A stretch of 64,000 bases of DNA from Sedimentisphaerales bacterium (lineage in GTDB: Bacteria; Planctomycetota; Phycisphaerae; Sedimentisphaerales; Anaerobacaceae): NCBI GenBank assembly GCA_016936075.1, contig JAFGPS010000004.1:18227-82226 (forward strand), given 5' to 3'. A program made the translations under genes and the position numbers. Each line of letters begins with the position of its first letter. Position 1 is the first letter of the stretch. The notes below the pieces were generated by a model. The model saw only the letters and a list, made by a program, of their open reading frames with translations, did no database searches and was not told the DNA's origin. This document shows, piece by piece, positions 18,243 through 58,029 of this stretch.

Positions 18243-18890
18243 TTATACGTGGATATGTCCCTCACGGATAGCATAACGTGTCAAATCAGCTATATTATGC
18301 AGCTCAAGCTTATCCATAATATTCTGGCGATGTCGAATGACTGTATTGTTACTGATATGTAAGCTTAATGAGATTTCTTTTGAGGACTTTCCTTCTGCGA
18401 TGAGTTGGAGTATCTCCAATTCCCTATCACTAAGTATTGAAATTGATGAAGTATTTTCATTATTCTGATTAGTTATAAAGTGTGTCAGGATTGTCCTGCT
18501 TATTATTGGGCTTAAATACATTTGTCCTTTTAAGACTGAATGTATAGCAGTAACCAGTTCTTCAAAAGCACTTTCTTTGGGAATATAACCGACCGCTCCT
18601 GCTTGAAACATATCTGTAACATATTGATTTGCAGTTAACATCGAAAAACCAATGACTTTGCAGGATGGATTTTCTGTGCAAATTTCCCTGGTTGCGAGTA
18701 TGCCGTTCTTTTCAGGCATATCGATATCCATGATAACAATATCAGGATTCAATTGCCTGCTTATTTCTACAGCTTCTCGGCCATTTTTTGCAATCGATAC
18801 TACGTTAAGATCAGATTCTGACTCAAGAAGTATCTGGAGTCCTTCACACATTACAGTATGATTTTCTGCTATAAGAATGTTTATCGTCAT
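18243..18890 (-). CDS. NarL/FixJ-type response regulator
   Basis: 215 residues. The REC domain has phosphoacceptor Asp in DIVIMDIDMPEKNG, and Lys in GYIPKESAFEE. The C-terminal LuxR HTH (LSDRELEILQLIAEGKSSKEISLSL...NTVIRHRQNIMDKL) binds DNA. It overlaps the kinase gene upstream by 47 bases, so the two are translationally coupled and form a cognate pair. Target genes are unknown; the adjacent cheW-MCP unit is a plausible but unproven candidate. Confidence 0.95.
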   Translation of the reverse strand: MTINILIAENHTVMCEGLQILLESESDLNVVSIAKNGREAVEISRQLNPDIVIMDIDMPEKNGILATREICTENPSCKVIGFSMLTANQYVTDMFQAGAVGYIPKESAFEELVTAIHSVLKGQMYLSPIISRTILTHFITNQNNENTSSISILSDRELEILQLIAEGKSSKEISLSLHISNNTVIRHRQNIMDKLELHNIADLTRYAIREGHIHV

Positions 18891-26100: not shown

Positions 26101-26150
26101 AAGCAAAGCATGATAACAAAATGAATAAGACATATTTCAGGAGAATTATT

Positions 26151-35617: not shown

Positions 35618-37273
35618 ATGATTAAGAAGATTTTATCTATGTTTTTGGTGTCGGTTTTTTTATTAGTTACGGTCCAAAGTATATACGCACAACCAGGAGG
35701 CTTCGGCGGGCGTGGCGGCATGGGAGGGATGCCCGGAGGTATGGGGGGAATGCGTGGCGGCATGGGAGGCGGTATGAATCAAAAAGCAAGCTATGTTTCT
35801 GAATTCGACAAGGATGAAAATGGCTGGTTAAATAATGAGGAGAGAAAGGCAGCACGTGAGTCTATGGGAAATCGCCAATCCATGGGCGGCAGAGGTATGA
35901 TGGGACGAGGTGGCAGAGGAGGGGGTTTTGGTGGAACAAGTTATACAGAAGGAATTGCTCTTACGCCAGCCGATGTAAAATCATATTTTAAAAAAGAATC
36001 CCTCTATGACTTAGAAACGTTGCGTACAATCTTTCTGGAGTTCGAGAATGACGATTGGGAAGCCGAGCTTGAGGCGTTTTATCGTTCAGATGTCGAGGTA
36101 CCGGCTAAGATGATTGTGGATGGAAAGGAATATAAGAATGTTGGCGTGCGTTTCAGAGGGAATACTTCATATCAGATGGTTGGTACCGGCGGGAAAAGAC
36201 CTTTGAATCTTTCAGTAGATTATATAAAGAATAAACAGGAACTTTATAGTTATCGCACTCTCAATCTGATGAACTGCAATACTGATCCTACATTTATGCG
36301 TCAGGTTCTTTATCATTATATTGCTGGTCAATACATACATGCGTTAAAAGCGAATTATATACGATTAGTAATCAACGATGAAAACTGGGGTATATATGTG
36401 AATCTGCAGCAGTTTAATAAAGATTTTATCAGAGATGAATTCAATACGACAAAAGGTGCCCGTTGGAAAATTCCGCAGATGAGTCCTAACGGCGGCCTTG
36501 TTTATGTCGGTGACAATATAGAATCTTATAAAAGAACTTATGAGATCAAGAGCAAAGATGATCCAAATTCGTGGAAGGCGCTTGTCAATTTGTGTAAGGT
36601 TCTGAACGAAACTCCAGCAGAAAAGTTGGAAAATGCCATCAGGCCAATACTTGATATTGACGGTGCATTGAAGTTTCTTGCACTTGAGAAGTCTCTTGTT
36701 AATAGTGATGGTTATTGGACCAGAGCGAGTGACTATCTATTATATATGGACCCGACAGGGCGGTTCCATGTTTTCCCCTATGATACAAGTGAAACTCTGA
36801 GTGAAGCTGAAGGTGGTCCCGGTGGTGGTCGTGGTGGTCGCGGCGGATTTGGCATGGGAGGTGGCACAAGTAGCGGAACGATGCTCGATCCTCTGGCCGG
36901 AGCTAATGATTATGATAAGCCGTTGCTCTCAAAGTTATTGGCAGTTCCGTCTTTAAAGCAGCGTTATTATGGATATATTCGTGATATCGCTGAAAACTGG
37001 ATGGATTGGAATAAGATAGAACCTTTGGTCGAGCAATATAAATTGCTTATAGCCGAAGATATTGAGATTGATACTAAAAAGAACTCAACTACTGAAGCCT
37101 TTTATAGCGGCATAGATGGTTCTGAACAAGAGACTTTTAACCTGGTCGGCTTTGGTGGTGGAAGAGGCGGGAGAGGTGGCCCAGGCAGAGGATCAAGTAT
37201 TAGCTTAAAGGATTTCTTTGAAAAACGTCGGGCAGAGCTTTTAAATCTTCAGGAAATAAGTCAGGCTAAGTAG
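35618..37273 (+). CDS. Secreted CotH-family protein with EF-hand and Gly-rich regions
   Basis: 551 residues. A signal peptide (MFLVSVFLLVTVQSIYA) is followed by a Gly/Met/Arg-rich segment, an EF-hand-like loop (FDKDENGWLNNEE), and a second Gly-rich stretch. The CotH kinase-like domain runs from about residue 120: KNVGVRFRGNTSY, RTLNLMNCNTDPTFMRQVL, WGIYVNLQQFNKDFI and PYDTSETLSE. A third Gly/Arg block and a final one near the C-terminus are present. CotH homologues are atypical protein kinases on spore-coat or secreted proteins. It neighbours DUF4956 and VTC-domain genes, a frequently seen association. Confidence 0.9.
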   Translation: MIKKILSMFLVSVFLLVTVQSIYAQPGGFGGRGGMGGMPGGMGGMRGGMGGGMNQKASYVSEFDKDENGWLNNEERKAARESMGNRQSMGGRGMMGRGGRGGGFGGTSYTEGIALTPADVKSYFKKESLYDLETLRTIFLEFENDDWEAELEAFYRSDVEVPAKMIVDGKEYKNVGVRFRGNTSYQMVGTGGKRPLNLSVDYIKNKQELYSYRTLNLMNCNTDPTFMRQVLYHYIAGQYIHALKANYIRLVINDENWGIYVNLQQFNKDFIRDEFNTTKGARWKIPQMSPNGGLVYVGDNIESYKRTYEIKSKDDPNSWKALVNLCKVLNETPAEKLENAIRPILDIDGALKFLALEKSLVNSDGYWTRASDYLLYMDPTGRFHVFPYDTSETLSEAEGGPGGGRGGRGGFGMGGGTSSGTMLDPLAGANDYDKPLLSKLLAVPSLKQRYYGYIRDIAENWMDWNKIEPLVEQYKLLIAEDIEIDTKKNSTTEAFYSGIDGSEQETFNLVGFGGGRGGRGGPGRGSSISLKDFFEKRRAELLNLQEISQAK

Positions 37274-37284
37274 CCATAAAAAAT

Positions 37285-37317
37285 GCCCCTTGTTTTCATA
37301 AATAAGAAGCAAGGGGC
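37285..37317. terminator. Terminator-like hairpin between cotH and the DUF4956 gene
   Basis: GCCCCTTG/CAAGGGGC arms (37285-37292 and 37310-37317) lie just after the cotH stop, between two convergent genes. It has no strong T-run on the plus side and may act on both strands. Confidence 0.65.
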
Positions 37318-37351
37318 TATATATTCTTATATATTCTGTATTTAATATATT

Positions 37352-38026
37352 TCAACCAGCAAAGAATTCGATATTTCCCTGACCAGCGAGTCTGGTAAGT
37401 TCTGAAGTAAATTTCACTTTCTCAGAGGCTGATATTTCACGATGCTGATAATGAATTGAAATTCGGTCGTCCATAACCGACATAGTTTTCATTGTAAGAC
37501 TATTGAGCCGGCTCTTGAGAAACTGATTCAATTGAGGTTCTACTTCTTCAAAAGCTGCTTTATCAATTGAAATTATAAAACTCACCAGGGGTTTTAGTGA
37601 AAAATGATTCTGGATTAGCCATTGAATACAAAGAGCAAGAAGTACAATTAGAAACAGGATTATCATAATAAGTGCTTTTTGTGTTGATGCTCCCACAGAT
37701 GATGCTATAAGTAACAGGACATATCCAATTTCTGCCGGGTCTTTAACGGGAGTTCTAAACCTTACGAAGGACATTGCACCAAGTAATCCGAGAGAAAGCG
37801 GGACTGAGCTTTGAATTGCAAGAAAGAGTGCTGTTATGGCCGGACCTATTATGATAAAGCAACGATCAACTCCTGCTCCGATATTGCGTGATTTATAAAA
37901 CGCCTGATAGAGAATATATATCATAACAGATGCTGCAAGCGAAAGGCTAAGCGAAACTATAATTTGTTGTACAGAGAAATTAGATGGTTCGAGTGTTTCT
38001 AAAAAGGCTTGTTTCAGCGTTTCCAT
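37352..38026 (-). CDS. DUF4956 membrane protein
   Basis: 224 residues. Four membrane helices occupy the first 140 residues (VSLSLSLAASVMIYILY; CFIIIGPAITALFLAIQ; VPLSLGLLGAMSFVRFRTPVKDPAEIGYVLLLIASSVGA; ALIMIILFLIVLLALCI). They include the DUF4956 signature SFVRFRTPVKDP. A soluble C-terminal domain of about 80 residues follows. It lies 26 bp after the VTC gene and is almost certainly cotranscribed with it. DUF4956, VTC and CotH genes recur together in bacteria, suggesting a shared envelope or polyphosphate function. Confidence 0.92.
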   Translation of the reverse strand: METLKQAFLETLEPSNFSVQQIIVSLSLSLAASVMIYILYQAFYKSRNIGAGVDRCFIIIGPAITALFLAIQSSVPLSLGLLGAMSFVRFRTPVKDPAEIGYVLLLIASSVGASTQKALIMIILFLIVLLALCIQWLIQNHFSLKPLVSFIISIDKAAFEEVEPQLNQFLKSRLNSLTMKTMSVMDDRISIHYQHREISASEKVKFTSELTRLAGQGNIEFFAG

Positions 38027-38052
38027 GTTGTTTACTCCTGATAAATAAGACT

Positions 38053-38841
38053 TTATTGTGATTCAGTTCTGCCGGAAGGCCATGTGTGACCGATAGAACC
38101 ATTTGTTTCCATGTGAGATTCAATGCATCCTGCGTATTTTGAAAACCTTGACCAGTCAATACATGCGTGATGCAAAGGTCGAAGTGATAAAGGGATCTCA
38201 ATTATTGTGCCCTTAATTTCGATTACAGCTCCCTGCAGCATTATATTTGCATAAGAATGCCCTGGAATATGATAAGTTGGTACTGATCTGATTTGCCAGT
38301 CAAAGGACATTCTCGTTCCGGTCATGATTTCAGTGAAACGCAATCGGTCATAAGATATCATAATTACTGGTAATATATGACCATTTGGAAAATAATTGAA
38401 TTCCGCCAATGTTTTTAGAATTACATTCCTGTTCAAAATTGAACCGCCGGTTTTATATTTGTAAATTTGTTCTGCCGGTACGAGAAATTTCCTGCGTTTC
38501 TTTTTGCTTGCGAAACCTTTCTTCGATTTTAATTCGAGATATACTGGAACCGTTTCATCCTTTGAGGGATTATCGTACCATCGAATACGGATTTTCTCCC
38601 TTTTGTAATCTCCGTCGTCTGATTTCTGATACTCTTGTAAATCAGGTGTATCGAAATAAAGGCTATTAATTGTACCTCTTGAATATTTTTTATCCGGCAT
38701 ACAAATACTGGTCATCAGGCTGCGGGCATATATTATTTTGTCGGGACTAACAAAGAATTTTCGCTCGATTCGATCCCACCGTTCGTCCTTGTCTGATACA
38801 GAACTTTTTTTTTCGTTGCGGCGAAATTTTAAAAACACCAT
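38053..38841 (-). CDS. VTC-domain protein (polyphosphate polymerase-like)
   Basis: 262 residues. The VTC/triphosphate-tunnel pattern is readable: ERKFFVSPDKIIYARSL, YSRGTINSLYFDTPDL, KIRIRWYDN, VPVYLELKSKKGFASKKKRRKF and MISYDRLRF. These conserved Arg, Lys and Glu residues line the tunnel that binds triphosphate in Vtc4. The product in bacteria may be polyphosphate, but this is inferred from the yeast enzyme. No membrane segment; it probably works with the DUF4956 protein encoded next to it. Confidence 0.9.
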   Translation of the reverse strand: MVFLKFRRNEKKSSVSDKDERWDRIERKFFVSPDKIIYARSLMTSICMPDKKYSRGTINSLYFDTPDLQEYQKSDDGDYKREKIRIRWYDNPSKDETVPVYLELKSKKGFASKKKRRKFLVPAEQIYKYKTGGSILNRNVILKTLAEFNYFPNGHILPVIMISYDRLRFTEIMTGTRMSFDWQIRSVPTYHIPGHSYANIMLQGAVIEIKGTIIEIPLSLRPLHHACIDWSRFSKYAGCIESHMETNGSIGHTWPSGRTESQ

Positions 38842-51382: not shown

Positions 51383-51560
51383 TAAATCTATATTTTGATA
51401 TCTTTTGTTGGTATATTGCTAAATCGTTAATATTAGTCTAAAAAATCAAATTTGTCAACAAATAAAAAACTTGTCTGAGACTCTAAGCTATGATATAAAT
51501 ACCGCTTTGTGTTTGTATTACTTTTATAAATAGAAAGAAACTTAAATATTTTAGTGAGTA

Positions 51561-54803: not shown

Positions 54804-55931
54804 TTAGGCTCTTCTTCTACCGCCGCCGAAGCCTCTTCGTTGTAATTCTTCGCCTTGGAGAGGTTCTTTCCATTGCAATTGCTCTTCGATATTGCCTGCC
54901 AGTTCGTATTTGATTACATGGTCGGTTGGCTTTGCCTGACCGATTATGTCAATCTTTGCACGGTCAATAATTCCCAGTCCTGCATCCGCACAATAATTCA
55001 GGTAGCCGAGATTTTCGAGCGGCACGTCCATAAGTTGTGCGCCGATACTATCGACCGCCATTACATCAGTTCCGGCCAACGCTACGCCGTGCTCGACAGG
55101 TGTACCGTTCATAGGACCGCTGCCTTCCATACCTTCGAGGCCGTCTAATATAGTAAACTGCGGCCGAACTTTCTGTGCTACAAGGAACATGTTGTAGTGT
55201 AGCCATCTTGAACTTGCACCGTGCATCGTGCGTTTGTAACTGCTGTTTCGACCTGCATTGAGCGGGCATCCCATGACAATGTTCTTGAGGCCCATTGTGG
55301 CAATAACTGTATTATGTGTTTTCAGACGTGTCATGGAAATGAAATAATTCTTCGGGTCCATGAACTCCGAGATAATCTGAATTCCTACAGGCCGGAGGTT
55401 TCCATCGACTATCCAGTAGGGCGTTCCGGAGTGTGTGTTAAAATCCTGGCATGTTACATCGTATTCTTTTTCGAGTGACATATAGCCGTAGTTCTCAAAA
55501 GCCGGCATAGTATTTTGTGAAGCTGATGATTCACCAATAATAATCTTTCCTGGATTCATAGGCTTGAGAAAATCCAGTAACGCGCGAACCGCGTCCGGAT
55601 GAGTCGCGCAGAGAAGATTGTCTGTCCCTACGAAGTTCGGCTTGATAATTACCTGCTTGCCTTGTATTCCTTTTTGAATTTCGTCTTTCCACGGCTCTAA
55701 TACCTTGGTTATCATATCTCGCCTGTCCTTGCCGGCGGTAAACGAGACCTTGCTCCTTCCCGTCCCAACGGTCTGTGCGGCTTGCGAACTCGCGACGGTA
55801 GGTTGAGCGGCTAGTAGGCTCGAATTCAAATTGAGCATAGCACCGGCCGAAAATAAAAGCGTGCCTTTAAGAAAATTCCTTCTGTTATTAAGAGAATCAG
55901 ATGCGGCTTGAAGTTGTTCATATTGGTCCAT
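54804..55931 (-). CDS. DUF362 protein, Tat-exported (copy A)
   Basis: 375 residues. The N-terminus has a twin-arginine signal (NNRRNFLKGTLLFSAGAML). The DUF362 body shows KQVIIKPNFVGTDNLLCATHPDAVRALLDFLKP, GESSASQNTMPAFENYGY, RLKTHNTVIATMGLKNIVMGCP and GTDVMAVDSIGAQLM. There are no ferredoxin-type cysteine clusters. The tail is Gly/Arg-rich (GFGGGRRRA). It is a paralogue of the gene at 56211-57374 and shares its promoter architecture. DUF362 members are of unknown activity, some linked to Fe-S or redox proteins. Confidence 0.9.
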   Translation of the reverse strand: MDQYEQLQAASDSLNNRRNFLKGTLLFSAGAMLNLNSSLLAAQPTVASSQAAQTVGTGRSKVSFTAGKDRRDMITKVLEPWKDEIQKGIQGKQVIIKPNFVGTDNLLCATHPDAVRALLDFLKPMNPGKIIIGESSASQNTMPAFENYGYMSLEKEYDVTCQDFNTHSGTPYWIVDGNLRPVGIQIISEFMDPKNYFISMTRLKTHNTVIATMGLKNIVMGCPLNAGRNSSYKRTMHGASSRWLHYNMFLVAQKVRPQFTILDGLEGMEGSGPMNGTPVEHGVALAGTDVMAVDSIGAQLMDVPLENLGYLNYCADAGLGIIDRAKIDIIGQAKPTDHVIKYELAGNIEEQLQWKEPLQGEELQRRGFGGGRRRA

Positions 55932-56026
55932 TGTTACCTCCCGGAGCGTGACGAAGAAGTGCTATTGAAAAATATCATCATTAAGATACATCGAAATTCA
56001 TCCTTCAGTAATAAATATTACACACG

Positions 56027-56061
56027 AATATAGCTTATACGAGCATGGAAAACAATTGTTT
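56027..56061 (-). promoter_or_regulatory. Promoter with AAACAATTGTTT palindrome (DUF362 copy A)
   Basis: On the minus strand: TTGTTT (56050-56055), 17 bp, TATATT (56027-56032). The -35 is part of the perfect 12-bp palindrome AAACAATTGTTT (56050-56061). The same arrangement occurs at 57477-57511. Confidence 0.75.
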
Positions 56062-56151
56062 CATGGAAAATATGTTAAATTTAGATATTCCATAGTATGT
56101 CTATTCAAAGTTGGAAATGTGTGAAGATTCTATTGTGCGTTAAATAAATTA

Positions 56152-56189
56152 AACAAAAGACCCACTAATATTTAAGTGAGTCTTTTGTT
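56152..56189 (-). terminator. Terminator of DUF362 copy B
   Basis: 15-bp stem with one mismatch: AACAAAAGACCCACT against AGTGAGTCTTTTGTT, 8-base loop. On the minus strand it is followed by TTTTGTTTAATTT. It lies 22 bp beyond the stop. Confidence 0.88.
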
Positions 56190-56210
56190 TTTTTAGTTTA
56201 GTGTAAGTAT

Positions 56211-57374
56211 TTATGTTCCTCTTCTTGCACCTCCGAAGCCGCCACCGCCGGCTCTTCTGTTTCCGCCGCCTCCGCCGCTGGTGTTGCTTCCGAATGGGCC
56301 GCCTTCGTTGTCCTGCATCTGGAGAGGCTGCATCCATTTGAGTTGTGTATCAGCGTTGCTTCCAAGTTTGTATGCTTTGACATATTCCTGCGGCTTTTTG
56401 TCACCGATAATATCAATTTTTGCCCGGTCGATAATTCCAAGCCCACCTTCGGCACAATAATTCAGGTAACCAATATTTTCGAGCGGTATGTCCATAAGCT
56501 GCGCGCAAATGCTGTCGACTGCCATTACATCGGGTCCGGCCAATGATACGCCGTGCTCGATAGGATCGCCACTGATAGGGCCGTCACCTTGCATACCTTC
56601 GAGGTTTTCGATAACAGTAAAGTTCGGCCTTACTCTATGGGCGACAAGGAATAGATTGTAATGCAGCCATCTCGGACTCGCGCCGTGCATTAATACTTTG
56701 CTGCTGCTTGGCCTTCCCGTATTAAGCGGACAACCCATAACAATATTTTTCAATCCCATAGTCGCAACGACTGTGTTATGTGTTTTCATGCGCGATACGG
56801 AAATGATATATGTATCGGGATCGAGGAAGTCGGAAATAACCTGTATCGGCTGGGGCCGCAAATCTTTATCGAGAATGTATAGCGTTTGGGTTGTGTGAGT
56901 ATTCAAATCCGCAAACTCAACGCCATATTCCTGCTGTAATGGCATATAGCCGTAGTTTTGGAAACCCGGCATAGAACTTCCGCCGGCGGGGGATTCACCG
57001 ATTGTGATTTTTCCGTTATAAATTGGTTTGAGGAAATCGAGCACGCCGCGAACCGCATCCACATGAGTTGCACATAGAGGATTGTTTGTAGAAACGAAGT
57101 TGGGTTTAATCAATACTTTTTTCCCTTTTACGCCTTCTGCAATCATATCCTTGAAAGGAGTCAGGACTTCGTTCATCATTTCCCGGCGGTCCTTGCCTGC
57201 TGTAAACGCGACTTTACTCTTTTGTGGCGTGGTTTGCCCGGCTGATTCTGCCGCAAATGTTGGTTTTTGCCCGTTCAGCAGAAAACCGGCGGACATGAGC
57301 AGACCTCCTTTTAGGAAATTTCTTCTGTTATTAAAACTATCAGGTGCGGTTTGAATTTTGTCGGAATGTTTCAT
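56211..57374 (-). CDS. DUF362 protein, Tat-exported (copy B)
   Basis: 387 residues. The Tat signal is NNRRNFLKGGLLMSAGFLL. The body repeats the copy A motifs (KKVLIKPNFVSTNNPLCATH; GESPAGGSSMPGFQNYGY; RMKTHNTVVATMGLKNIVMGCP; GPDVMAVDSICAQLM). The C-terminus is a longer Gly/Arg-rich tail (GGGGGNRRAGGGGFGGARRG). By eye it is more than half identical to copy A; each gene has its own promoter. It ends at a strong terminator. Exported folded by the Tat system, so it may bind a cofactor; which one is unknown. Confidence 0.9.
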   Translation of the reverse strand: MKHSDKIQTAPDSFNNRRNFLKGGLLMSAGFLLNGQKPTFAAESAGQTTPQKSKVAFTAGKDRREMMNEVLTPFKDMIAEGVKGKKVLIKPNFVSTNNPLCATHVDAVRGVLDFLKPIYNGKITIGESPAGGSSMPGFQNYGYMPLQQEYGVEFADLNTHTTQTLYILDKDLRPQPIQVISDFLDPDTYIISVSRMKTHNTVVATMGLKNIVMGCPLNTGRPSSSKVLMHGASPRWLHYNLFLVAHRVRPNFTVIENLEGMQGDGPISGDPIEHGVSLAGPDVMAVDSICAQLMDIPLENIGYLNYCAEGGLGIIDRAKIDIIGDKKPQEYVKAYKLGSNADTQLKWMQPLQMQDNEGGPFGSNTSGGGGGNRRAGGGGFGGARRGT

Positions 57375-57476
57375 TAAGACCTCCAGATGTACAATGAAGA
57401 ATTTTTATTGTAAAAAAAAATATTTTTTGAATACATTTAAATTAATCTTTCATATACAGGCTTTGCCTTTATAGGC

Positions 57477-57511
57477 AATATAACATATACGAGCAATGAA
57501 AACAATTGTTT
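57477..57511 (-). promoter_or_regulatory. Promoter with AAACAATTGTTT palindrome (DUF362 copy B)
   Basis: Minus strand: TTGTTT (57500-57505), 17 bp, TATATT (57477-57482). The palindrome AAACAATTGTTT spans 57500-57511 and overlaps the -35. Flanks are shared with copy A (TATACGAGC ... AAATATGTT). About 100 nt of leader follow, with a small GCCTATAAAGGC-type hairpin. Confidence 0.75.
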
Positions 57512-57711
57512 GTTTTTAAATATGTTGAGATAGGAAGCTTAAAATGCTTGTTTTTCGCATTTTTTCACATGTGTTAAGGTGTGCTAATAAGTTTTACTGC
57601 TATTAATAACGTATAGTTTTCGAAGCTTAAATTTGATTGATTGAGGAAAATTTTATTTACAAAACTTATAATATTTATTATAAAAACTGTTTTTATACAG
57701 TAGTAAGAAAT

Positions 57712-58029
57712 ATGAGCCAGGAAGATTTTTGTCAGGATTGTCATCAAAAGAATGACTGTCAGGAAGTTTACAGGCGTATGGGTTCTTCGGAATGCCCACC
57801 TGTTTTCTATAAAACCTTGACGGCTTTTCTAATGCCGATGGTGGTTTTTATTGTTTCCCTGGCTGTTTTTGAAAAAACTATCTCCGGCGGGGATTATTTG
57901 CTTTTTTCACAGAAATTGCAAACCGCTCTCGGATTTTTCGTTGCGTTGCTGATTACTGTAGTTTTTATGATTACTTTTAAATTGTTAAGTAAACTTTTCA
58001 GGAAAATTTTTAGAATTGCCATAAAATGA
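57712..58029 (+). CDS. Small Cys-rich two-TM protein upstream of rnfC (RseC-like)
   Basis: 105 residues from the ATG at 57712; the track ORF uses a TTG 75 bases earlier, so the start is uncertain. A cysteine-rich N-terminus (DFCQDCHQKNDCQEVYRRMG...CPP) is followed by two membrane helices (FLMPMVVFIVSLAVFEK; LQTALGFFVALLITVVFMI). Cys-rich plus two helices resembles RseC/RsxC-associated proteins found with rnf operons. The four-base overlap (ATGA) with rnfC shows it belongs to the operon. It may help to assemble or reduce the complex; this is inference. Confidence 0.75.
   Translation: MSQEDFCQDCHQKNDCQEVYRRMGSSECPPVFYKTLTAFLMPMVVFIVSLAVFEKTISGGDYLLFSQKLQTALGFFVALLITVVFMITFKLLSKLFRKIFRIAIK

Follow-up and report, generated by a model that had tools for sequence, protein, structure and literature searches.

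Two adjacent DUF362 genes, lying beside an rnf cluster in a 64,000-nucleotide stretch of DNA (the window), are each preceded by a promoter whose -35 element is part of the same perfect palindrome. We asked whether this palindrome is the operator of a regulator, perhaps serving a small regulon as an earlier note on this DNA had proposed, or part of a promoter that both genes inherited from a common ancestor.

Gene layout and promoters of the DUF362 pair

Gene 1 (54804-55931, minus strand) is an open reading frame of 375 aa that matches PF04015 (DUF362) with E=6e-38. Gene 2 (56211-57374, minus strand), its paralogue, encodes 387 aa and matches with E=2e-35. The scores of 131 and 123 bits are above the curated cut-off of 24. 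The gene 1 protein starts with a twin-arginine-like RR-x-F-L-K motif and ends in a Gly/Arg-rich stretch. Twin-arginine-like N-termini and Gly/Arg-rich C-terminal tails are found in both proteins (54804-57374), and tail length varies among the paralogues and the orthologue in the sister species G042. A terminator-like hairpin with a 16-bp stem (56151-56190, minus strand) lies after gene 2 and ahead of the gene 1 promoter; the two genes therefore look like two transcription units, with gene 1 separate from gene 2. Elsewhere in the window, a small Cys-rich membrane-like ORF without a Pfam match (57637-58029, plus strand) immediately precedes rnfC, and its counterpart in G042 (51%; L009:142-456, minus strand) also heads the rnf cluster; CotH, DUF4956 and VTC-domain genes adjoin one another at 35618-38841.

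Both predicted DUF362 promoters are on the minus strand. That of gene 1 (56027-56055) has a -35 element TTGTTT at 56050-56055, a 17-bp spacer and a -10 element TATATT at 56027-56032. That of gene 2 (57477-57505) has the same hexamers at 57500-57505 and 57477-57482, again 17 bp apart, with a TG one base ahead of the -10. The exact palindrome AAACAATTGTTT covers the -35 of gene 1 (56050-56061) and that of gene 2 (57500-57511), 118 and 125 bp from the respective start codons; its symmetry stops at 12 bp without extension. The upstream elements read AACATATTTTCCATGAAACAATTGTTTTCCATGCTCGTATAAGCTATATT (gene 1) and AACATATTTAAAAACAAACAATTGTTTTCATTGCTCGTATATGTTATATT (gene 2) on the minus strand and have the flanks TATACGAGC and AAATATGTT in common. 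These measurements confirm what the earlier note had described: the same TTGTTT-17-TATATT promoters, a palindrome over both -35 elements, additional shared flanks and a distance of about 120 bp to the start codon. When the two upstream regions are compared without gaps, the highest identity over 35 bp is 31/35; 300 Markov-1 simulations reached a maximum of 25, and the sharing is therefore not due to chance. The -10 matches the consensus at five of six positions in both promoters. The -35 matches it at only three (the TTG of TTGACA), so that both sites fall below the threshold of a standard promoter scan.

Duplication of the genes, and conservation in the sister species

The two DUF362 proteins are 62% identical, and the alignment of the DNA upstream of their genes begins just above the palindrome and runs across the 5' UTR into the coding region. 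The genes are old tandem paralogues in which gene and upstream region were duplicated as one unit; both promoters are therefore copies of one ancestral promoter. The syntenic block of G042 contains the rnf cluster, an M48 peptidase gene and then a single DUF362 gene, whose product is 83% identical to the gene 1 protein. In the tree, gene 1 and the G042 orthologue are grouped with a support of 99/98 and gene 2 branches outside. Because of this grouping, and because fourfold sites of gene 1 and gene 2 are only 46% identical, the duplication is not recent and predates the split from G042. At the matching place, the G042 orthologue carries AAACAATTGTGTCCGGCGTTCGTATATGTTATAAT, with a TTGTGT-17-TATAAT promoter and a TG before the -10. 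Its palindrome, AAACAATTGTGT, matches at 11 of 12 positions and has one of the six dyad pairs broken. The -35 is again 3/6, and the -10 now has the full consensus (6/6). The possibility that the element belongs to the rnf operon was rejected, since in G042 the M48 peptidase gene intervenes and the element stays with DUF362. The element is absent upstream of the homologues in G043 (same genus, 60%) and G021, and the upstream regions of other homologues, those of Bacteroidales and other phyla included, also do not have it.

Conservation is concentrated in the promoter. Gene 1 and gene 2 agree at 31/35 positions in the element, whereas identity is 57% over the UTR and 48% in the DNA above the element. 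Across all pairs of gene 1, gene 2 and the G042 orthologue, the element scores 31/35, 26/35 and 28/35 (gene 1 and the orthologue giving the 26/35), the UTR 57-63% and the region further upstream 43-48%. Columns invariant in all three sequences make up 26/35 of the element and 11/12 of the palindrome, versus 35/81 of the UTR (Fisher p=0.002 for either comparison). The left arm AAACAA, upstream of the -35 hexamer, and the spacer segment CGTATA are identical in all three promoters.

Two neighbouring promoters without the palindrome served as controls. The divergent rnf-cluster promoter TTTACA-17-TATAAA (57656-57684, plus strand) is almost unchanged in G042. The glyA promoter TTGTCT-17-TATAAA (51471-51499, plus strand) retains its spacer there. 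Both belong to the same syntenic block and are conserved to G042 at least as well as the DUF362 promoter, spacers included. A kept -35, spacer and -10 are therefore ordinary promoter behaviour at this distance and give no hint of a special regulator; the palindrome is not conserved beyond the level of an ordinary promoter.

An inherited promoter or an operator

We think it probable, on the basis of these comparisons, that the shared sequence is a duplicated, selectively maintained sigma-70-type promoter; with less likelihood, the palindrome may be an operator. Each DUF362 gene would have its own housekeeping (sigma-70/SigA-type) promoter, with transcription predicted to start about 90-96 nt ahead of the start codon. 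Gene, 5' UTR and ancestral promoter would have been copied together, at a time when this species and its sister had not yet separated. Since the duplication is older than that separation, the survival of the promoter probably reflects selection. Purifying selection, presumably on promoter strength, would have held the -10, part of the spacer and an A/T-rich stretch that takes in the -35 and the bases above it. The promoter core would thus have stayed alike during the drift of the UTR and of third codon positions. The palindrome would belong to this constrained stretch without having to be an operator. The architecture agrees with the extended -10 type of sigma-70/SigA promoter: the hexamers are 17 bp apart, TATATT or TATAAT is rightly placed, a TG precedes the -10 in the gene 2 and G042 promoters, and the layout is that of the adjacent rnf and glyA promoters. 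It differs in its -35, TTGTTT or TTGTGT with only 3/6 consensus bases, and in the overlapping palindrome. Two features speak against an ordinary promoter. AAACAA lies outside the -35 hexamer and is nevertheless invariant, as is the CGTATA of the spacer; and a -35 as weak as TTGTTT (3/6) can leave room for a regulator or indicate that one is needed.

The main alternative, which we consider unlikely, is an operator role for the palindrome: a dimeric repressor (or, with still less likelihood, an activator) would bind it and act on DUF362 alone, be it one gene or several, in this genus. A protein bound over the -35, centred near -35.5, would exclude RNA polymerase from both promoters. Dyads of the MarR or TetR type are examples of repressor operators overlapping the -35, and the likeness here consists in a short inverted repeat centred near -35.5. 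The dyad is perfect over 12 bp in both paralogues, AAACAATTGT is invariant in the three promoters, the palindrome exceeds the UTR in invariant columns, and the overlap with the -35 is that of classical repression. The difference from such systems is that no regulator, ligand or further targets were found, and that the dyad is only 12 bp long and imperfect in the sister species. No regulator gene adjoins the DUF362 genes among the neighbouring ORFs scanned, which were part of the ORFs of the window; the nearest ones found, a PadR-like gene at 26121 and a LuxR-type response regulator at 18243, are both far off. Also against an operator are the lack of symmetry past 12 bp, the G043 and G021 homologues without the palindrome, the equal conservation of neighbouring promoters that do not have it, and the frequency of 12-bp palindromes in these intergenic regions: the approximately 10 kb of intergenic DNA in the window contains six perfect ones of any sequence, and the present palindrome by itself is not very rare. 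The change in G042, where one of the six pairs of AAACAATTGTGT is broken and the -10 has reached full consensus, would fit selection on the promoter and not on the dyad, although one mismatch would still allow an operator. A more specific form of this alternative appears quite doubtful, namely that Sedimentisphaerales have an undescribed dimeric regulator dedicated to this site. It would bind AAACAATTGTTT over the -35 and switch the exported DUF362 paralogues beside the rnf ion-pump cluster, each paralogue forming a transcription unit by itself.

It is very improbable that recent gene conversion or duplication alone, without selection on the promoter, explains the likeness. The elements of gene 1 and gene 2 are indeed more alike (31/35) than those of gene 1 and the orthologue (26/35), but divergence is large in the UTR (57% identity) and at fourfold sites (46%), any recent copying would need to have been restricted to about 50 bp, and the element is kept in the sister species too. 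The earlier note had named recent duplication as an explanation that would undo its proposal; duplication is the source of the similarity, but one that predates the sister split.

Searches for further sites

The exact palindrome AAACAATTGTTT occurs five times in the 4.36-Mb genome (an 89%-complete assembly), and two of these copies are the DUF362 promoters. The other three lie inside an 849-codon open frame, inside a frame of 1004 codons that we take, from reading its sequence, to be glutamate-synthase-like, and 12 bp past a tRNA-Cys gene; none has TTGTTT-17-TATA. With the long element and up to three mismatches, no third promoter was found in the whole genome. The composite element, searched over 161 genomes of the order and likewise with up to three mismatches, was detected only at the two promoters in the window and at that of the G042 orthologue. 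Forward counts of the spacer and -10 motif TCGTATANGNTATANT were not above those of the reversed-pattern control. The degenerate pattern ACAATTGT-N18-20-TATANT gave five further sites in four genomes, scattered at unrelated genes, versus two for its reversed control, a frequency close to that of the control. Occurrence at promoters of several non-homologous genes was not found in these searches; the site is confined to two paralogues and the sister orthologue. No riboswitch or leader RNA in Rfam matched the DUF362 upstream regions, the only match being sraL, below its cut-off and downstream of the DUF362 gene in G042. Our literature search found no bacterial paper on AAACAATTGTTT as an operator and none treating DUF362 together with Rnf.

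That two promoters of one genome have the site in common might suggest a genuine regulon, with several genes under AAACAATTGTTT promoters at scattered places; such a regulon is scarcely credible given the placement of the other three copies and the yield of the degenerate search. The small regulon that the earlier note had proposed is not borne out. It is largely refuted and would be conceivable only with an operator far more degenerate than those searched, or in the unassembled parts of the genome.

Other promoter families

A control search brought out two multi-copy promoter families in these genomes. One belongs to a GC-rich non-coding element of about 100 nt that carries a promoter of its own (TTGTTTTATTCTSTGGTTTGCGNTATAAT in G042) and ends in a hairpin and T run (..CCGGTGAGT..ACTCACCGGCTGCTTTTTT). 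Copies are located at G042 L194:1020-1143, L194:4811-4934 and L195:1072-1195 and at G000:C71:26335-26430(-). Similar sequences are present in 16 of 89 genomes of the family, with up to four copies per genome, and no Rfam 15 match was obtained at E<=1. The element has a fold z of -3.5 and a two-hairpin consensus, with double-sided changes in only 1 of 26 pairs, and is a candidate for an unnamed small RNA family.

The other family consists of paralogous sigma-70-like (ECF-type) genes that have one promoter and leader, TAACGCCTTATATTTGTGTAGAGAACAAATAACGANTATAATAGCGTTATGGAGACTTGAAAAATG, in common, flanked by an inverted repeat TAACGC..GCGTTA. They are found at G000:C203:1190, C67:3813, C92:66141, C204:39074, C139:1276 and C151:2062 and at G042:C81:75122 (L187, L172, L188, L189, L191, L193), the C151 copy being detected by the leader pattern only. 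Where read that far, the proteins end in (N/K)AAPA-type tails. In these genomes their promoter is a better candidate for a co-controlled promoter set than the DUF362 element.

Implications

Of the earlier interpretation, the shared and better-kept promoters at both DUF362 genes stand and the regulon falls. If the palindrome were a true operator, it would offer a first handle on how DUF362 genes next to rnf are controlled, but no operator is needed to account for the present evidence. The locus is a clear example, on a small scale, of a promoter inherited through tandem duplication in uncultured relatives of planctomycetes, with its conservation measured in a sister species.
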